A stretch of DNA of 51,901 bases from a virus. The notes under the pieces were generated by a model that was given only the letters and a program-made list of their open reading frames with translations, searched no databases and was not told the DNA's origin. The translations under genes were made by a program, and so were the position numbers. The DNA is taken from the IMG/VR virus record IMGVR_UViG_3300025127_000058, positions 1-51,901 of that record. One strand, given 5' to 3'. This document shows, one piece after another, positions 26,664-51,901 of this stretch; positions within the stretch are counted from its first letter, which is position 1; every line of letters begins with the position of its first letter.

Positions 26664-27434
26664 TTATTTAAGCTTTTTAGTAAGAGCTTTATACATCTCT
26701 ACACCTTCATCTGTTTTAAACCATGCAGCTAATGCTGAATAAGGGTTTTCATCAAAAGGCACACTAAATAACTTTCTTTTAGTTTTACCTAAGCTAAAGC
26801 TTCTTTGGTCTTGTGATAAATGTATAAGACCTGCTTCAACTGCTTTAATACCAAAGTTTCTAAGTTGAACATTTTCGTCTTTTGCTAATTCAATAAACAA
26901 TTGTGGTTGTTCTTTAGCAAATAAAAGTAAATCTCTTTTAAGTTCTTTAGAACTCATTTTATCAACTCTAGAACCTACTTCTGTTCTTAACACTGCTTCT
27001 GCTTGTTCAATATCCATATCTCTAGCCATTAGTAAAGCTTCTATTTCCCACTCAATGGTATCAGTTTCTATAATAGCATCTTCTTGTGGTTTTAATTCTG
27101 TATATCTCTTGTTTAAATCAGGGTGATATATAGAAAGTAACTTTTGCAAAGCTTGCTCTTGTTTAGGAACAACTAGTGATCCATCTCTAAAAACAATATG
27201 TTTTAAAGTTACTTCACCTTTTTGCTCGTCTACAAATGGAGAGTTTTGGTTTGTAGCATATCTCAATGCTCTTTGAGTATTTGTTGTTGTATCAAAATAT
27301 AACAGAGGATATTTTTCTGTATGTCTTGATTTTATTGTATATGTTAAAGGATTTTTATCACCTCTAATCATATACGTTCTATCTTTTATTTCCCACCCTT
27401 TTTCTGCAGGGTGTACTTTGTTTTCTTTTGACAT
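26664..27434 (-). CDS. Conserved phage protein of unknown function, bracketed by two terminators
   Basis: 256 residues. It starts MSKENKVHPAEKGWEIKDR. RALRYATNQNSPFVDEQKG near 55-73 contains an internal NSPF. The remainder is helical with KMSSKELKRDLLLFAKEQP, VQLRNFGIKAVEAGLIHLSQ and a terminal PYSALAAWFKTDEGVEMYK. I remember very similar sequences from marine myoviruses and podoviruses but no assigned role. Being directly after the capsid gene suggests a head-related function. UUCG-loop terminators lie on both sides, 25 bases before its start and 6 bases after its stop. Confidence 0.8.
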   Translation of the reverse strand: MSKENKVHPAEKGWEIKDRTYMIRGDKNPLTYTIKSRHTEKYPLLYFDTTTNTQRALRYATNQNSPFVDEQKGEVTLKHIVFRDGSLVVPKQEQALQKLLSIYHPDLNKRYTELKPQEDAIIETDTIEWEIEALLMARDMDIEQAEAVLRTEVGSRVDKMSSKELKRDLLLFAKEQPQLFIELAKDENVQLRNFGIKAVEAGLIHLSQDQRSFSLGKTKRKLFSVPFDENPYSALAAWFKTDEGVEMYKALTKKLK

Positions 27435-27498: not shown

Positions 27499-28983
27499 TT
27501 AAGCTGTAAATAATACGAAGTTATTTCTAGCTTGTACACATAGACATCTTTCAGATAAGAAGTTTACTTGCATAGCATCTAACGTAGAATTAGAAGCACC
27601 ACCAACTGAACCAGTTAGCCATGATTTCATTCTTCTGTCATCTGCTTGAGAAGCTCTATATCTTACATGTAGGAAAGGTCTTCTGATGTTTGTTCCAAGT
27701 AACTGATCGTATACTGTAGAAGTACCAGCTGGTACTAATACACCATCAATATTGTCACCATTAACAAAGTTTGAAGAACCACCTCTTAATGAAGCGTCGT
27801 TTAAGTATTTCCATGAAGTTTTATAGAAGTCATATGAACCTCTTCTAAATCCAGAAAAACCTAAGTTAAGCGCCATATCTTCAGAGTTTTCAAATACACC
27901 ATAAGATGTACCACCAGCTCCGTAAGAATTTTGCTGTGCTAACATATTGTCAAACAATAGTTCAGTTCTTCTATCTAAGAATAACATATTTTCTTCAATA
28001 GCTCCTTCACTGTCTAATAATTGTAATACAGAATCAAAGTCTTGTAAAGATCCAGCATAACCAGAAAGTACATTACCACCATTGTTGATAGCAGCAAATA
28101 AACCTTCAGTACCAATAGAACCAGCAGTTGATTGGTTAACAAATTGTGTTAAACCAACAGCGTTAAAGCTAGCTGCGATTGCATTAGTAGAAGCAAGTTC
28201 ACCTTCAATCATTGCCATTTCTAAATAATCTTCAAATCTTAATCTAGTTTCACCTTCGGCTTTTAAATACCATAGGTAACCAGAGTTACCATCTTCTGTA
28301 GCAACCTCAACCCAACCGATTTGAGCTGTATCAGAACCAGATACTGAGTACTGATCTCTAATAATAATTGGCTTATTACTAAAAGTTGATAATTGTGGCT
28401 CAATGGAATTAAAGTTACTAGTAGTACCAGCACCTGTTCCACTTATACCTTTTGCAAATTCAGAACCGTAAACAAATACTTTACATCCTGTTCTTGCTAC
28501 GTTAATATCGTTAACAGCAGCTCTTGTGTAAGGCTGTGCATCTACGAAAGCAGCTCCAACAGCATATACAATAGCTTTTACTGTAAACGCTGGATCAGCT
28601 GGATCCATAACAACGATAGTATCGTTAACATCGATAACATTTTGTACAGTTGTACCGTTTTGGTTTGCAATAGTAATTCTATGACCAGTTTGTGCACCAC
28701 CTGTAGCTTGAACAGTACAATTATCATAAGAGATATGTAATCTGTTTTGCTCAGACCATACAACTTGGTCAGACATCATTGGCATTTCAGCGCCAACCAT
28801 TCTTAAGAAGCCTCCAATCGTTCTGTTTCCATAACGTTCTACCTCGGCTTCATAAATTTCAGGTAGATATTGTTGCGCGAAGTCATTACCACCACCGCTG
28901 TTAAAATTCAAATAGTTTGAATTTAAAGTAACAGGCTGAGCAGTAGGTATTAAACTTCCGAACTGAGGACTTAATACACCCAT
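27499..28983 (-). CDS. Major capsid protein (HK97-fold candidate)
   Basis: 494 residues, near the size of crAss-like capsid proteins. The N-terminus MGVLSPQFGSLIPTAQPVTL is followed by FAQQYLPEIYEAEVERYGNRT and GGFLRMVGAEMPMMSDQVVWS, a pattern typical of this capsid group. A likely E-loop and A-domain rich in Gly, Ser and Asn follow (GGAGTSYGVFENSEDMALNLG). It sits directly after the scaffold gene (11-base gap) and the portal, the expected order. A strong terminator just past the stop fits high, separately tuned expression. Assignment rests on size, position and remembered similarity. Confidence 0.85.
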   Translation of the reverse strand: MGVLSPQFGSLIPTAQPVTLNSNYLNFNSGGGNDFAQQYLPEIYEAEVERYGNRTIGGFLRMVGAEMPMMSDQVVWSEQNRLHISYDNCTVQATGGAQTGHRITIANQNGTTVQNVIDVNDTIVVMDPADPAFTVKAIVYAVGAAFVDAQPYTRAAVNDINVARTGCKVFVYGSEFAKGISGTGAGTTSNFNSIEPQLSTFSNKPIIIRDQYSVSGSDTAQIGWVEVATEDGNSGYLWYLKAEGETRLRFEDYLEMAMIEGELASTNAIAASFNAVGLTQFVNQSTAGSIGTEGLFAAINNGGNVLSGYAGSLQDFDSVLQLLDSEGAIEENMLFLDRRTELLFDNMLAQQNSYGAGGTSYGVFENSEDMALNLGFSGFRRGSYDFYKTSWKYLNDASLRGGSSNFVNGDNIDGVLVPAGTSTVYDQLLGTNIRRPFLHVRYRASQADDRRMKSWLTGSVGGASNSTLDAMQVNFLSERCLCVQARNNFVLFTA

Positions 28984-30258: not shown

Positions 30259-32622
30259 TTATATACCTTCGTTTTCAAAATTTATAGGCATTAAATCATT
30301 GTTTCTTTGATCTATCATAGCGCTTTGCTGTGAGCCTTCCATTTTAGTTCTTTTATCTTTACGATCTTCTATAAAAGATTCTTTTTCTTTCATAGCATCA
30401 ACTTCTATCTTTTTTAACTCCATATCAAACATATGTTGTTGTTGCATTTTTTGCTGATCAAGTTGTGCTTGTAATTGCATTTTTTTAATAGCTAAATTAT
30501 TTTTAGCTTCTTCATATTGTACATTAGAAGCTGTTAAAGCTTGTTGCTTTTGCATTTCTGCTTGAGCAATAGCTTGAGCAGAAGCTGCCTTAGCTTGTTC
30601 TTGAGACGCTGCCATTGCTTGCTGTTGCTGATCCATACGCTTTTGTTTTTCTTTACGTTTTTGTTTCAGCACATCATTAGCAAGTTTAAGATTTTTTATT
30701 CTTCTAATATCAATAGCATCTTCTAAATCTATACCGCCTTGCTGTATAGCCATTTGTATATTTTGCTCTAATCTTGCTTTTTCTTCTTCTTCAGGTTCTA
30801 ATTCTAAATAAATACCAAAATCATGTAGCGGTAAATTTTGTATTTCAGATAATGTAGCGGTATTATATGTAGATATAGAACTTTTTAATGAATTTAATGT
30901 TAAAGGATTTTTTAAAGAATCAGCAATTTTTAATGATATATTTTCACAAGTTCTTAGTGTTAACCACAAACTCGCTTGCATTATATGTCTTGTAGCTGTA
31001 TTAGAAGCATTAACTGCCATTTTTTGTAAACCAACTAACGTATCTTTTTCAGGCATACTACCGTCTCTTGCTTCATTTAAACCTGTACAATCTCTAATTA
31101 ATTGTAAATAATACTGATATGTAGCAATTAAACTTTGTATTTTACCTTGACCACTTGAAGTTTGTAATTCTTGAATAGGTACTTTACCTGGATTCATATC
31201 ACCTTCTTGAGTCATTGATCTACCTACGATACTACCAGTTTGAAAATACATATTTAATGCTTCTGCTGGATTATAATTTGTACCATTACCTAAATCAACT
31301 TCAGCAAGACCATCCATATCTAAAAATACACCATCTGGAACTGTACGAGCAATTACTTGTTGTAGTTTCAAATGTGTTATTTGTATCATATCAGCAAAGC
31401 CTGTACACTTACTAACAATAGATTCTATACGACCTTTATACATACGTGGCGAACATATAGTATAACTCATTTCTACTTTTGTAGTATCGGCAAAAGGTCT
31501 AGTCATATTTTCTGACAACTGCCATTTAATAAGTTGATTATTGCCTAAAATTTTTACACCTTCATAAAGTACTTCTATTTTTCTAGCAACTCTCTGAAAA
31601 TTATCATTAGCAGGAGGATTAAAGGTATCAGGTTTTTCTAATGCTTTTTCTAATCCAGTATCAGTTTGTTTAATTTTAAAAACTTGTTCGTTATAAGTTT
31701 TATATTCAAAAAATAAAACTGAAACAGTATTAGGATCGTAAGATCTATATCCGTATAAATTATCTTTTTGATAACCTTTTGTTTGTTCTATCTTTTTTAA
31801 ATCTTCTTGTGTAAGATAAGGAAACTGTTTAGCTATTTCAGGAACAGTTAATTGCTTTACTTCACCTACATAATATATATCTTCAAAATGAGGATCTTCT
31901 GTATAAGAATATATTAAATTAGCTGGATCTACATATTTTAAATTAACACCATTAGCTGGATTAAAAGCTGTTTTACAAGCTCCAATACCTAATACAACTA
32001 AATCATGATTAAATCTTTTCTTTATATTGTCAAATCTATTACGTTCAAGAGTGTTATTTATAACTTCTTCTTCCGCTATTTCTACACTTTGCTTATAGCT
32101 TAACTGCATATGAATATCTAACTCTTGCTCGCTTTCAGGTAATTTATTTTGATCTGTATTAAATTTGTTTACACCTAGATTTCCTTCAAGATTTTGTAAA
32201 AAAGGTTTAGCCATCATATCAGTTAAAATAGCATCAGCATAAGCTGTTCGCTTTTTTAATGATACTGGGTCTTGAGCAAAAGCTTTTATTTCATAAAGCT
32301 TATTGTTCATACCGTTACTAACTATATCTACAAATTTAGATAACACAGGTACTGGTTTCCAGTCTAAATTTAAATAAGATAAATCACCATTAATAGCTAA
32401 TTCATCTTTATATTTTTGCACTGGTTGCTCACCTCTTGCATATAATCTTAATGTATGAAACCTATTAAATGAAGTAGCAAATCTAGTACCATTACCACCT
32501 TGCTGCCACCATTCGCCTTCTATAGCCTGTGCAACTTGTCTTCCATATTCTTCTGATGATTTTTCAATATCAGAGACTGTTTGGCTAGGAAAAGCACTAT
32601 TTGGATTTGCGTATATATTCAT
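30259..32622 (-). CDS. Portal protein (crAss-like type)
   Basis: 787 residues. It forms the dodecameric DNA gate at one capsid vertex. FHTLRLYARGEQPVQKYKD, LDWKPVPVLSKFVDIV and GACKTAFNPANG fit the clip/wing regions of large portals of crAss-like and marine podoviruses. The last 170 residues are a Gln/Ala-rich coiled coil (RMDQQQQAMAASQEQAKAAS...), the barrel-like C-terminal extension inside the capsid. It touches the terminase gene at its start (terminase stop and portal ATG adjacent) and precedes the scaffold. Confidence 0.88.
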   Translation of the reverse strand: MNIYANPNSAFPSQTVSDIEKSSEEYGRQVAQAIEGEWWQQGGNGTRFATSFNRFHTLRLYARGEQPVQKYKDELAINGDLSYLNLDWKPVPVLSKFVDIVSNGMNNKLYEIKAFAQDPVSLKKRTAYADAILTDMMAKPFLQNLEGNLGVNKFNTDQNKLPESEQELDIHMQLSYKQSVEIAEEEVINNTLERNRFDNIKKRFNHDLVVLGIGACKTAFNPANGVNLKYVDPANLIYSYTEDPHFEDIYYVGEVKQLTVPEIAKQFPYLTQEDLKKIEQTKGYQKDNLYGYRSYDPNTVSVLFFEYKTYNEQVFKIKQTDTGLEKALEKPDTFNPPANDNFQRVARKIEVLYEGVKILGNNQLIKWQLSENMTRPFADTTKVEMSYTICSPRMYKGRIESIVSKCTGFADMIQITHLKLQQVIARTVPDGVFLDMDGLAEVDLGNGTNYNPAEALNMYFQTGSIVGRSMTQEGDMNPGKVPIQELQTSSGQGKIQSLIATYQYYLQLIRDCTGLNEARDGSMPEKDTLVGLQKMAVNASNTATRHIMQASLWLTLRTCENISLKIADSLKNPLTLNSLKSSISTYNTATLSEIQNLPLHDFGIYLELEPEEEEKARLEQNIQMAIQQGGIDLEDAIDIRRIKNLKLANDVLKQKRKEKQKRMDQQQQAMAASQEQAKAASAQAIAQAEMQKQQALTASNVQYEEAKNNLAIKKMQLQAQLDQQKMQQQHMFDMELKKIEVDAMKEKESFIEDRKDKRTKMEGSQQSAMIDQRNNDLMPINFENEGI

Positions 32623-49122: not shown

Positions 49123-49226
49123 TTATGGTCGTTTTTTTGTGATTGTTGTACAAGTTTAATACTTACACATATTTTTCTAAATTTACATAATCCTATATCT
49201 ATTATATAATATATTATATATATCTA

Positions 49227-49249
49227 GATATTATACGTAGTATAATATC
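49227..49249. promoter_or_regulatory. Perfect 10-bp inverted repeat, operator candidate
   Basis: Arms GATATTATAC and GTATAATATC are exact reverse complements around a GTA spacer. It lies about 105 bases from the late block's first start codon and has no T-run on either side, so it looks like a dimer-binding operator more than a terminator. Confidence 0.6.
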
Positions 49250-49253
49250 ATAA

Positions 49254-49302
49254 GGGGGAAATTTTTAGGTACATCGCATAGAGCGCATGGTGGTGTCCCC
49301 CC
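49254..49302. other. GC-rich hairpin/G-tract element in an AT-rich control region
   Basis: GGGGGA (49254-49259) can pair with TCCCCC (49296-49301) around a 36-base loop that contains CGC-ATAGA-GCG. The C-run is followed by TCCCC, so the minus strand carries GGGGAGGGGGG. It is the only G/C-rich spot in the region. It could be a primer, origin or packaging-type site. Confidence 0.45.
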
Positions 49303-49397
49303 TCCCCAAAAAGTGTGCCAAACTATACAAAAATTCAACTTTTTTTACAATTTTTTACATTTTTATGTTTTTATTTCACTATGTTTTACATTTTTCT

Positions 49398-49434
49398 ATA
49401 CATAATGCGAACTAATTATGATAATAATAATGTA
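49398..49434 (+). promoter_or_regulatory. Early promoter-like element, copy A
   Basis: 37 bases, begins ATACATAATGCGA and ends TGATAATAATAATGTA. It matches copy B at 30 of 37 positions and copies C and D in the two conserved blocks. It lies about 200 bases upstream of the first early gene, just left of the TGACA half-site array. Confidence 0.65.
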
Positions 49435-49471
49435 AATAAGTTACAATGAAAATATTACTAATAAATATTTA

Positions 49472-49517
49472 TGACAATGTGTCACAATATGACACTCATT
49501 GCAATGACACAATGACA
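49472..49517. promoter_or_regulatory. Array of five TGACA/TGTCA half-sites, operator candidate
   Basis: Half-sites at 49472, 49480 (inverted), 49490, 49505 and 49513. The first pair forms TGACA-ATG-TGTCA; the next makes GTGTCA-CAATA-TGACAC. They lie between promoter copies A and B, where a bound regulator would affect early transcription. Confidence 0.55.
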
Positions 49518-49555
49518 TTTACAAATAGTAAACAAATATACACTTATTAAAATCA

Positions 49556-49592
49556 ATACACAATACGACTTACAAATGATAATAATAATGTA
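49556..49592 (+). promoter_or_regulatory. Early promoter-like element, copy B
   Basis: ATACACAATACGA, an 8-base spacer, then TGATAATAATAATGTA. It ends 44 bases before the ATG at 49637 and is the likely driver of the first early gene. Confidence 0.7.
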
Positions 49593-49636
49593 ACTAATAA
49601 AAATAAAATAATAATTAATAACTTAAATTCTAAATT

Positions 49637-49870
49637 ATGACAAACACTATTAACTCAAAAAGATTTGTTATTCGCAAATCACTAATCGGAAAAAATACAA
49701 CTATTAATGTTGAATTTAAAAATGGTAAAACTTGCACTTACAATCATGATAAAGTGTATGAAATTATGAAAGATACACTTGACAAATTACCTTGTTTTAT
49801 CAAATATAACTCTTACACTTCATCAACAAATGTACCTGTAAAAGTTAGAACACTAGTTGAAGTTAAATAA
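49637..49870 (+). CDS. Small early protein, unknown function
   Basis: 77 residues, MTNTINSKRFVIRKSLIGKN, basic and beta-like (INVEFKNGKTCTYNHDKVYE) with a VPVKVRTLVEVK end. No family is recognised. First gene of the plus-strand module; no Shine-Dalgarno motif precedes the start, only A/T-rich leader. Short size, position after promoter copies A and B, and basic charge suit an early host-takeover protein, but that is inference. Confidence 0.65.
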   Translation: MTNTINSKRFVIRKSLIGKNTTINVEFKNGKTCTYNHDKVYEIMKDTLDKLPCFIKYNSYTSSTNVPVKVRTLVEVK

Positions 49871-49883
49871 CTAGTGTTTAAAT

Positions 49884-49926
49884 TCTAGTCTTGGAGCAGA
49901 GGTGGGTTTCGACTACTCACACTAGA
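49884..49926 (+). ncRNA. tRNA-like minihelix 1 (acceptor/T-arm mimic)
   Basis: TCTAGT (49884-49889) pairs with ACTAGA (49921-49926). Inside, GTGGGT (49902-49907) pairs with ACTCAC (49915-49920) around the 7-base loop TTCGACT, the tRNA T-loop consensus. The two 3' strands are contiguous, so 6+6 = 12 bp could stack coaxially like the 7+5 of a tRNA. A 12-base linker replaces D and anticodon arms. Lies between two early genes. Confidence 0.5.
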
Positions 49927-49957
49927 GCTAATGTATTAACTTAAATAATAAATAACT

Positions 49958-50176
49958 ATGCAATTTAAAGATTATGATGCGAAGGCTATCGCGGCGAAGC
50001 TCAAACAAGTTGAAGAGTTTGAAGCTAAGTATGGAGAAAATGATATGAGTAAAAGCTGGAGAAAGTGGTGTAACTCCCATGAGTATCGCAGGCGTGAGTG
50101 GCTATGGCGACAAAATCTCGCTAAAGCTAATGAAGAACTAAATAATACTATTTACCATGAAGAGAGATTTATATAG
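49958..50176 (+). CDS. Small early protein, helical, unknown function
   Basis: 72 residues: MQFKDYDAKAIAAKLKQVEE, then WRKWCNSHEYRRREWLWRQN and ANEELNNTIYHEERFI. Mostly helix with many Trp and Arg residues, perhaps a protein- or nucleic-acid-binding helical hairpin. Its leader follows minihelix 1 by 31 bases. The 3' end overlaps the next start by 20 bases. Confidence 0.65.
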   Translation: MQFKDYDAKAIAAKLKQVEEFEAKYGENDMSKSWRKWCNSHEYRRREWLWRQNLAKANEELNNTIYHEERFI

Positions 50177-50297
50177 ATTTGCTAAGGCAAGAAAGAATAA
50201 GCGTAAAGAAATATATAAACTAAGCGCTGAAGAGATTAAAATGATAGAATATCAATACTATTCTAAGTATAATAATTCAATACATAATACGATTTAA
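50157..50297 (+). CDS. 46-residue basic early protein whose end overlaps a promoter
   Basis: ATG at 50157, stop at 50295-50297: MKRDLYRFAKARKNKRKEIY, then LSAEEIKMIEYQYYSKYNNS and IHNTI. Basic helix then Tyr-rich helix. The last six codons are formed by promoter copy C, so coding and promoter sequence share bases. The tight overlap with the gene upstream supports it. Confidence 0.55.
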   Translation: MKRDLYRFAKARKNKRKEIYKLSAEEIKMIEYQYYSKYNNSIHNTI

Positions 50298-50316
50298 GTA
50301 TGATAATATAATAAAA
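50280..50316 (+). promoter_or_regulatory. Early promoter-like element, copy C
   Basis: ATACATAATACGA, spacer, TGATAATATAATAAAA. It ends 7 bases before the ATG at 50324 and its left block lies inside the stop end of the preceding small gene. Confidence 0.7.
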
Positions 50317-50323
50317 TCAAAAT

Positions 50324-50536
50324 ATGAATACAATTAAGTTTACATCTAAAACAACTTGCCGCTTAAATGGCATTGAGTACAAAGGTTATACTGTTGGTAA
50401 TCTACCTAACTCATTTGGCTTCAAAGAAATATATCTTGGCCAAGACGAAGAAGGTAATCACCAATTTAAAACTGGTAAATCACACTGGTTTAAGTATAAA
50501 GGTTTAACATTTATAGAAGCTCCACTAAAATGGTAA
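50324..50536 (+). CDS. Small early protein, beta-rich, unknown function
   Basis: 70 residues: MNTIKFTSKTTCRLNGIEYK, GYTVGNLPNSFGFKEIYLGQ, DEEGNHQFKTGKSHWFKYKG and a short end. Aromatic and glycine-rich, likely a small barrel-type fold. Directly behind promoter copy C. Overlaps the next start by 7 bases. Confidence 0.65.
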   Translation: MNTIKFTSKTTCRLNGIEYKGYTVGNLPNSFGFKEIYLGQDEEGNHQFKTGKSHWFKYKGLTFIEAPLKW

Positions 50537-50721
50537 TTAATAATATGAAAGAATTATGCGAGTACGTTGCCAACAAGCGCAAAGCTCGCAAAGCTCAGCA
50601 CATAGAAATAATTAAAATCTATGGCGAGTGTAAAGGTATGGGAAACAAGAGATATAAATTGCCGCAGAAATCTTCTTTTCCAAAACAATATAAAGCGGCG
50701 TACAATAAAATATGGAGATAG
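50530..50721 (+). CDS. Small basic early protein, unknown function
   Basis: 63 residues: MVINNMKELCEYVANKRKAR, KAQHIEIIKIYGECKGMGNK, RYKLPQKSSFPKQYKAAYNK and IWR. Strongly basic, single domain size, two cysteines. An alternative start exists at the second Met (MKELCEYV). No family is recognised. The end overlaps the next gene by 10 bases. Confidence 0.6.
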   Translation: MVINNMKELCEYVANKRKARKAQHIEIIKIYGECKGMGNKRYKLPQKSSFPKQYKAAYNKIWR

Positions 50722-50813
50722 ATGACATGGTTTATCTCGAAGAGATAGACGAGTACGTAACTGTACAAGAATATAAAGAATATATTAACTATATAACTAA
50801 TAATAAACTATGA
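50712..50813 (+). CDS. 33-residue acidic early microprotein
   Basis: MEIDDMVYLEEIDEYVTVQE then YKEYINYITNNKL. Acidic and tyrosine-rich, in contrast to the basic gene before it. Start lies within the upstream gene's end and its stop overlaps the next ATG as ATGA (50810-50813). The packing is the main support. Acidic mini-proteins in this position can be DNA mimics or inhibitors of host proteins, but nothing specific shows that here. Confidence 0.5.
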   Translation: MEIDDMVYLEEIDEYVTVQEYKEYINYITNNKL

Positions 50814-51019
50814 AATTAAATAGAAAACTACGTGATTCTATTATAGGTTGCATGCTAATTGGTGCTAGTTTTACACTAGGTATACAATGGGGTGAGCAAA
50901 ATATATTAGACAGATGGGAAAATAGGTGGTTTGACTCTGAATGGTATGACCACCAATCAATAGAAGATATACTATATGATAAAGAGTGGGATAATTACTT
51001 GTGGACTAACAATGATTAA
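50810..51019 (+). CDS. Small early membrane-associated protein
   Basis: 69 residues. MKLNRKLRDSIIGCMLIGAS is followed by FTLGIQWGEQN, giving one hydrophobic span (about 10-27) after a basic N-terminus, then a Trp/Asp/Glu-rich soluble tail (WENRWFDSEWYDHQSIED). A small inner-membrane protein, cytoplasmic or periplasmic tail undetermined. Coupled by ATGA to the gene before it. Confidence 0.65.
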   Translation: MKLNRKLRDSIIGCMLIGASFTLGIQWGEQNILDRWENRWFDSEWYDHQSIEDILYDKEWDNYLWTNND

Positions 51020-51022
51020 TCA

Positions 51023-51059
51023 ATACACAATACGATTAACCTTTGATAATAATATAAAA
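51023..51059 (+). promoter_or_regulatory. Early promoter-like element, copy D
   Basis: ATACACAATACGA, spacer, TGATAATAATATAAAA. It ends 9 bases before the ATG at 51069, the same arrangement as copy C. Confidence 0.7.
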
Positions 51060-51068
51060 TAAAAAAAT

Positions 51069-51257
51069 ATGTATTGTAGATGCGGAAACACTGTGCACCC
51101 AGTGCGTTTAGAATTAGGTTATAAAAACTGTGTAAGTTGCAGTACAACTAAAACTTACTCGTATGTACCTATTATCACCCATAAAACTGGTAACACTATA
51201 CAAATAGTGTCGCAGGAAGTTTCCGCGTCTGTACATAAAGCATGGAGACGCAAGTAA
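51069..51257 (+). CDS. Small zinc-ribbon-type early protein
   Basis: 62 residues. C3-x-C5 at the N-terminus and C21-x2-C24 (NCVSC) give a four-cysteine zinc site in a compact ribbon, with KTYSYVPIITHKTGNTIQIV as the beta part and HKAWRRK at the end. I remember close relatives (YCRCGN...HPVR...C..C) in other flavobacterial phages without known role. Small zinc ribbons often contact RNA polymerase or DNA. Direct target of promoter copy D. Confidence 0.72.
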   Translation: MYCRCGNTVHPVRLELGYKNCVSCSTTKTYSYVPIITHKTGNTIQIVSQEVSASVHKAWRRK

Positions 51258-51466
51258 ATAAATTAGAAAGATTATTATATCTTACAATAATATGTGCTAT
51301 CTGTTTCTTTTGTGGTGTATTCTATACGTTCTACAAAATAGATCAGCGAACATGGAACGAAGATATATTAAAAGCTAGAGACATAGAGACGAGGTATATG
51401 AATTACCCAACTAAAAGAAATTATAAAAAAGAAGACTTAGAAAGAATAATATATGGAACAAATTAA
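51242..51466 (+). CDS. Small early membrane protein
   Basis: 74 residues: METQVNKLERLLYLTIICAI then CFFCGVFYTFYKIDQRTW; one transmembrane span (about 11-30) with three cysteines, and a charged helical tail (NEDILKARDIETRYMNYPTK). Overlaps the genes on both sides (16 and 14 bases). Confidence 0.65.
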   Translation: METQVNKLERLLYLTIICAICFFCGVFYTFYKIDQRTWNEDILKARDIETRYMNYPTKRNYKKEDLERIIYGTN

Positions 51467-51632
51467 GAAAAGAAGCTATGTATTTGTACTTGACTTTGAA
51501 ATAGGTTATGTATATAGATACGACGTGTTCTTCCGTGATGCTGAAAAGATAGAAGAATATTTAACAGAATTAGGTCACAATATAGGTAATATAGAGTGGA
51601 TGTTAACAAGAAATAAAAAAGTAATAACATAA
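51453..51632 (+). CDS. 59-residue early protein, alpha/beta, unknown function
   Basis: MEQIKKRSYVFVLDFEIGYV, YRYDVFFRDAEKIEEYLTEL, GHNIGNIEWMLTRNKKVIT. Strand-strand-helix-strand pattern typical of a small conserved fold. ATG inside the end of the membrane protein gene; stop 1 base before the next gene. Tight overlap and good amino-acid composition support it. Confidence 0.65.
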   Translation: MEQIKKRSYVFVLDFEIGYVYRYDVFFRDAEKIEEYLTELGHNIGNIEWMLTRNKKVIT

Positions 51633-51633
51633 C

Positions 51634-51819
51634 ATGGATAGTAGAAAAGCTTACGAGCAAATAAAAGAAGAAATAGTTGACAAAGAGTCAGCATATCTAT
51701 GCACTGAAATAGAAAGAGCATTGGACAGAATAATTAATTACACTGATCCACTTGATGAAACTATGTTCAGAGATATAAAAGCATCAGCCATTAAATTATT
51801 AAAAGAATGGCACTTGTAA
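51634..51819 (+). CDS. Small helical early protein, unknown function
   Basis: 61 residues: MDSRKAYEQIKEEIVDKESA, YLCTEIERALDRIINYTDPL, DETMFRDIKASAIKLLKEWH, L. All-helical, acidic, one cysteine. Last complete gene. It begins 1 base after the previous stop and is followed by the second tRNA-like element. Confidence 0.65.
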   Translation: MDSRKAYEQIKEEIVDKESAYLCTEIERALDRIINYTDPLDETMFRDIKASAIKLLKEWHL

Positions 51820-51854
51820 TCATTGATAGATAGTTAGACGAGTAGGTTAATTAG

Positions 51855-51901
51855 AGTGGTGCTACGGTACTAAGGTGCAGGTTCGACTCCTGCCACCACT
51901 A
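51855..51901 (+). ncRNA. tRNA-like minihelix 2 (acceptor/T-arm mimic) at the window edge
   Basis: AGTGGTG (51855-51861) pairs perfectly with CACCACT (51894-51900). Inside, GCAGG (51877-51881) and CCTGC (51889-51893) close the 7-base T-loop TTCGACT, the same loop as minihelix 1. The 3' strands are contiguous, 7+5 bp as in a tRNA, and base 51901 (A) would be the discriminator. Only 15 bases separate acceptor and T-arm, so no anticodon arm fits. An alternative hairpin with a TACG loop competes at 51857-51872. A truncated tRNA is the main alternative. Confidence 0.5.

Follow-up and report, generated by a model that had tools for sequence, protein, structure and literature searches.

What are two small hairpins that resemble half of a transfer RNA (tRNA) doing among the protein genes of a phage? 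The question is raised by the IMG/VR record IMGVR_UViG_3300025127_000058, whose 51,901 nucleotides (nt) make up the stretch analyzed here, called the window throughout. The phage is a marine one related to Flavobacteriia podoviruses; the window, a linear fragment of 51.9 kb, ends on the right in an array of small, rightward-directed early genes, and both hairpins lie there. Element 1 (49884–49926) sits between open reading frames (ORFs) of 77 and 72 amino acids (aa), and element 2 (51855–51900) follows a 61-aa ORF where the contig ends. On the sequence comparison that defines it here, the two belong to one large RNA family that is apparently undescribed; we met no description of it in the open-access literature. 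We consider it somewhat probable that these RNAs are phage tRNA mimics that host ribonuclease P (RNase P) and 3′ tRNA enzymes cut from early transcripts, which would separate the messages on either side.

Both hairpins reported in the initial annotation are real: each has 12 base pairs (bp) in total, the loop TTCGACT, contiguous 3′ strands, and a linker of 12 or 15 nt. The tRNA-type division into 7+5 bp that came with that description holds for element 2, whereas element 1 is divided 6+6. All parts lie on the plus strand, and the stems were assigned from pairing and covariation. The outer, acceptor-like stem of element 1 (6 bp) opens with TCTAGT (49884–49889) and is followed by the 12-nt linker CTTGGAGCAGAG (49890–49901), which replaces the D and anticodon arms and holds a GG that could dock on the T-loop. 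A T-arm-like hairpin with a 6-bp inner stem, GTGGGT-TTCGACT-ACTCAC (49902–49920), then runs directly into the outer 3′ strand ACTAGA (49921–49926) and the 3′ tail G-CTAA (49927–49931), a discriminator-like base plus CTAA recognized in a tail survey. Element 2 has the 7-bp acceptor strand AGTGGTG (51855–51861), the 15-nt linker CTACGGTACTAAGGT (51862–51876), the T-arm GCAGG-TTCGACT-CCTGC with its 5-bp stem (51877–51893, also supported by Rfam alignment), and the acceptor 3′ strand CACCACT with a discriminator-like A (51894–51901). Its span was first given as 51855–51901; the paired region ends at 51900, and 51901 is the next, unpaired base, where the fragment stops and relatives go on with CATAACT.

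Neither element is a canonical tRNA, that is, a cloverleaf scoring above the gathering threshold. ARAGORN found no tRNA in the window, a search with the Rfam tRNA model (RF00005) gave no match for element 1, and element 2 scored 22.3 bits against a gathering threshold of 29, in an alignment that passes over the D and anticodon arms. What the elements do have of a tRNA is the 12-bp stack of acceptor and T stems and the UUCRANU T-loop. Evidence that this stack is maintained comes from relatives of the two elements, which were gathered by patterns in which the linker and some of the T-arm are fixed and the acceptor stem is left free. Among relatives of element 1, the acceptor is paired in 99.2% of cells and four of six pairs have changed on both sides; among those of element 2, it is paired in 100% of cells, with two-sided changes at six of seven pairs. 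Covariation over the whole structure reached 0.376 for the element 1 set (shuffles, 0.103 ± 0.020) and 0.516 for the element 2 set (0.212 ± 0.037), and in neither case was any of 500 shuffles as high, although these shuffles ignore the relatedness of the sequences. The signal was lost when the partner strand was slid. A third set (n = 11) has two-sided changes in 11 of 12 pairs, some of its members having been picked because they are paired. Covariation in relatives, which had been suggested as a check, is therefore present in the acceptor stems of both elements.

The same architecture recurs far more often than chance would allow. Our comparison set held 80 loci coding for relatives of the 77-aa ORF (54–95% identity), and all contigs compared are uncultured fragments; individual loci carry L numbers below. 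A descriptor requiring the T-loop TTCRANN, 12 stacked pairs, and contiguous 3′ strands gave 45 matches in 1.17 Mb of relatives, 44 of them on the early-gene strand, and 3 in a shuffled set. A scan of the 80 loci for 12 (rarely 13) pairs followed by an N-CTA tail, with one acceptor mismatch allowed, returned 105 matches against 0, 0, and 3 in three shuffled sets; 104 were on the early-gene strand, and the exception lies in a reversed locus. One of these 104 is a weak match by chance within a late window gene, and among the distinct elements from the scan 15 are genuine tRNA-Met genes. With filters off, a first covariance model (R1, from G53-C61 relatives) put the two window elements in the top two places within 2.3 kb (15.5 and 13.7 bits); a multi-locus search with that model did not report them.

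Members of the family fall into four classes; their helices sum to 12 bp, the tRNA value, or in a few members to 13. Class I, to which element 1 belongs, has 6+6 or 7+5 pairs and a linker of 9–13 nt in which GG usually stands at about positions 3–5. Class II, that of element 2, has 7+5 pairs and a linker consisting of CTACGGTACTAA plus three bases, constant in all class II relatives partly since the search pattern fixed it. Class III also has 7+5 pairs, an acceptor that is mostly GGGCGTG/CACGTCC, and a linker of about 33–110 nt with a variable hairpin; class IV combines AACTAG/CTAGTT with linkers of 45–80 nt. True tRNA-Met(CAT) genes with the N-CTA tail of the family are also present in related loci. 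When viral contigs were searched with the blind pattern ATGGTTAA-N6-TTCGATTC, at least 93 unique matches were obtained, and 72 of the matches listed have a complete T-stem and acceptor with at most one mismatch, the acceptor sequences being very diverse. Of 72 unique elements, 56 have GG within linker nt 3–8, against a background of 10%, with GG mildly favored in the choice of the 5′ partner. Judging from these matches, class I-like elements are widespread in viral contigs. They are scarce in host genomes: under stricter filters, a class I covariance model matched one of 149 Flavobacteriaceae genomes, on a contig that carries an ORF of the 77-aa type, and none of the other 148. The closest annotated phages checked (MW202828, Elemovirus, Gundel_1, and phi38:1) have no class I element, their matches being mainly full tRNAs, and BLAST with one class I element against annotated phages recovered just tRNA T-arms and scattered fragments. 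The cultured Cellulophaga phage phi38:1 (KC821614, L107) has an apparently unannotated full transfer-messenger RNA (tmRNA) and two tRNA-Glu genes between protein genes (26805–27164, 28604–28676, and 30574–30646); each of the three has a CTAA tail, while the tails of most tRNAs in its array are different.

Placement is the second line of evidence. In the window, element 1 follows directly on the 77-aa early ORF (49637–49870), which served as the query for fetching relatives, and the 72-aa ORF (49958–50176) starts 31 nt past its last paired base. Most of the closer relatives have a hairpin of the element 1 architecture and of different sequence directly past the stop codon of the 77-aa ORF. Class I elements begin about 15 nt (9–128) past the upstream stop and in most cases end 11–26 nt before the next ATG. 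An unrelated contig (L360, G051:C1:24000-26500) has three class I-like elements in succession between genes, one overlapping a stop codon. Between each of the three and the gene that comes next stand ACAATG and a short palindrome, which together make a composite element. In another phage contig (L359, G053:C1:18700-20700), six near-identical minihelices stand in tandem about 100–160 nt apart in low-complexity non-coding DNA.

The 3′ tail is a third. It reads CTAA in 83 of 94 elements, where CTA was imposed by the scan and the fourth base was free, and the preceding base is A in 76 of the 94. Because the scan required CTA, independent evidence for the tail comes from the flanking bases and from the blind set, in which CTA was read in 30 of the 72 elements among the matches listed. 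All 66 Flavobacteriaceae tRNA genes compared have C74, most often followed by AA, and only 4 of the 66 encode CCA. Class I acceptors vary while the C74 of the tail is kept, as in these host genes.

RNase P and RNase Z measure the stack of T-loop and acceptor stem and use the elbow, and CCA is an antideterminant for RNase Z (PMC4919913). RNase P is known to cleave acceptor/T-arm minihelices and to process the phage M3 and C4 RNAs (PMC11143913). We propose that the elements are transcribed as parts of polycistronic early mRNAs in Bacteroidetes-type phages and imitate a tRNA's acceptor/T-arm half while lacking its anticodon arm, the T-loop contacting the linker GG as an elbow would. Host RNase P, measuring the stack, would most likely cut the 5′ side just past the upstream stop codon. 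On the 3′ side, the tail NC-UA-A has none of the CCA that shields mature tRNAs, so RNase Z or exonucleases would probably open the element there. Neighboring early messages would be separated, and the downstream gene would gain a short A/U-rich leader. The elements keep the 12-bp stack, the T-loop, the GG, and C74 and drop the anticodon and an encoded CCA, which is why we read them as candidate processing marks. Mimics that mark processing sites in the early transcript were one suggestion of the initial annotation, and placement, the 12-bp ruler, T-loop and GG, tail, and covariation all argue for it; the cuts are what we infer from them.

Several observations weigh against the proposed processing. 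RNase P prefers an encoded CCA. The family tail has C74, but against the conserved L15 GGU its U75 could form no more than a wobble; this GGU was aligned in one Flavobacteriaceae RNase P RNA, and a stretch matching it was found in 22 of 31 by a pattern presupposing GGU. A perfect pairing of the tail ACU with an L15 loop read as AGU was considered and rejected, since E. coli rnpB numbering shows that GGU is kept. Folding energies are unremarkable (z = −0.10 for element 1 and −2.03 for element 2), and the minimum-energy fold of element 2 is a rival hairpin with a cUACGg tetraloop, free-energy folding being uninformative for elements this short. The element is also a removable cassette, dispensable at a given junction: it is present between the 77-aa ORF and the MRIIKY... 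gene in L002, and L017, L020, L022, and L024 have that gene pair without it, with stop and start touching or nearly so. Since only about 3–5 early junctions per genome carry one, it is not general punctuation.

Of the two elements, element 2 makes the weaker case. In the window lineage its tail is ACAT rather than of the CUA type, and its conserved flanks can form an outer helix, TTGATA/TATCAA and GGTTA/TAACC, whose 5′ half (TTGATA...GGTTAATTAG, 51823–51854) stands between the 61-aa ORF (51634–51819, from the ORF list and relatives) and the element; in relatives it is predicted to close around element 2, the 3′ half lying beyond the window. Three relatives with a right flank (L027, L083, and L084) have about 150–375 nt of structured non-coding sequence between element 2 and a separate, complete tRNA-Met(CAT). 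The structured modules in this interval are exchangeable (L027 12390–12760, L083 7632–7782, and L084). In this lineage, element 2 may be a domain of a larger RNA, perhaps with another role; embedded in this way and without the CUA tail, it is less certain in both role and mechanism. Elsewhere, most homologues of element 2 carry the tail TCTAA, and one stands 12 nt ahead of an ATG (L042).

The alternative that survives best, though we think it unlikely for the elements as a whole, is that they are decoys acting in trans, a reading also raised in the initial annotation: once released, they would occupy alanyl-tRNA synthetase, SmpB/EF-Tu, or the CCA enzyme and block trans-translation or tRNA turnover. 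Such a role would concern mainly the larger class III relatives. The best of these pass the Rfam cutoff for tmRNA (RF00023) without an mRNA-like domain, with 53–64 bits in L062, L085, and L086 and E values down to 1e-18 in other loci, and 70 of 83 class III elements keep G3.U70, mostly with A73. In tmRNA, G3.U70 with A73 marks alanine identity. There is a gradation from the homologues of element 2 to class III (L287 shares the acceptor), and class II is, by this comparison, the insert-less end of a series that reaches tmRNA-like domains without a tag-coding region. There is also a precedent, as the tmRNA of phage DS6A that lacks a coding sequence (CDS-less), expressed in E. coli, is reported to inhibit host tmRNA (PMC11915505). 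In elements 1 and 2 themselves, the third acceptor pair is U-A in place of G3.U70, and both are too short for a tag reading frame. Class I acceptors are free to vary, which disfavors recognition by one synthetase, and a trans role needs no placement shortly ahead of start codons. In the anticodon/tag position, class III elements hold hairpin inserts that vary strongly (65 distinct ones, with a mean folding z of −2.1), for example in L002 (14001–14110), L248, L253, L263, and L264; some of these modules recur across contigs and also stand free between element 2 and tRNA-Met in L027. With its G3.U70 and mostly A73, class III could be alanylated and act in trans in addition. A tentative extension of the proposed processing would make the tRNA scaffold a general RNA device of these phages: bare minihelices would punctuate early operons, while the longer, tmRNA-like members of alanine identity would present interchangeable hairpin modules in place of the anticodon arm and be released by host tRNA enzymes to act in trans, e.g., against trans-translation or host defenses.

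Less probable still is an uncut element that works in cis on the downstream (or upstream) message, as a tRNA-shaped cap at its 5′ or 3′ end against exonucleases or as a recruiter of ribosomes or EF-Tu. The 11–26 nt spacing to the next start is consistent with this, as is the presence of other hairpins or pseudoknots at this junction in relatives. Alone, it leaves unexplained three features that tRNA-processing enzymes read: the length of 12 bp, the T-loop with its GG, and an NC tail like that of host tRNAs. A conserved pseudoknot-like element, GGTGACTNNCCGAACC...ACTGGNNNN, lies 3′ of the 77-aa ORF beside or in place of the minihelix (L016, L031, L032, L034, L036, L062, and L064); five loci scanned gave no Rfam match at the gathering threshold.

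That the elements are decaying tRNA genes or attachment-site fragments, the former also suggested by the initial annotation, is very improbable. Element 2 does match the Rfam tRNA model in part, and the fragment ends at its last base. We reject this origin for the family because in dozens of phages the stems have stayed paired while changing on both sides, and there are separate true tRNAs close by. Extension of the right flank in L027, L083, and L084 replaces element 2 with no canonical tRNA: the 47-nt element persists with conserved flanks in all three contigs, the real tRNA-Met is separate, and class I-like elements occur widely in viral contigs. Small hairpins are common in an A/T-rich genome and the z-scores are unremarkable, but intrinsic terminators or chance hairpins we count as refuted: the tailed matches far outnumber those in shuffled controls, and no terminator (a G+C-rich hairpin with a T run) was found in 49200–51901.

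As for the phage itself, the window terminase is 62% identical to that of the uncultured phage MW202828, 44% to Elemovirus, and 36–38% to Cellulophaga phages, and the window also encodes GroEL and a crAss muzzle protein domain. A promoter-like motif, CAATACACAATACGA..N..TGATAATAaTAa, is repeated ahead of early genes (window 49563, 50287, and 51030, plus strand), including the unit that holds element 1; in 1.09 Mb of relatives it occurs 161 times on the early strand and 3 times on the opposite strand.

To our knowledge, RNase P processing of phage transcripts other than tRNAs is known from a few single cases only. If the proposed processing is true, it becomes a regular means of organizing phage transcripts, and the family is a source of minimal substrates, shaped by natural evolution, for RNase P, RNase Z, and CCA enzymes. 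A further question is raised by the tmRNA-like members, with their alanine identity and exchangeable inserts: do phages commonly interfere with trans-translation? Among known systems, theta ribozymes of gut phages (PMC10879173) are likewise phage RNAs tied to tRNA maturation, with Bacteroidota hosts that seldom encode CCA. They are self-cleaving, resemble the hepatitis delta virus ribozyme, and stand beside real tRNAs, whereas no ribozyme core was seen in elements 1 and 2. Mitochondrial tRNA punctuation is alike in having tRNA-shaped elements between genes that would free mRNAs on tRNA processing; the elements here are non-decoding, belong to bacterial DNA phages, and occupy some junctions only, and their processing is proposed. 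tmRNA and the CDS-less tmRNAs of DS6A and some plastids (PMC11915505) are matched by class III, which aligns to the tRNA-like domain of RF00023 and keeps G3.U70, mostly A73, and the linker GG. The family differs from them in its missing mRNA-like domain, its variable inserts, its size classes down to 43 nt, its intercistronic position, and its tail ACUA. There is also a likeness to minimal RNase P substrates, the AT1-like minihelices and the M3 and C4 RNAs, in which a T-arm is likewise stacked on a stem of the acceptor type and the 3′ tail is short, and which include phage precedents (PMC11143913). Each of those is a laboratory construct or an individual small RNA; the family described here is large, lies between protein genes, and combines a GG-containing linker with a tail that has no encoded CCA.

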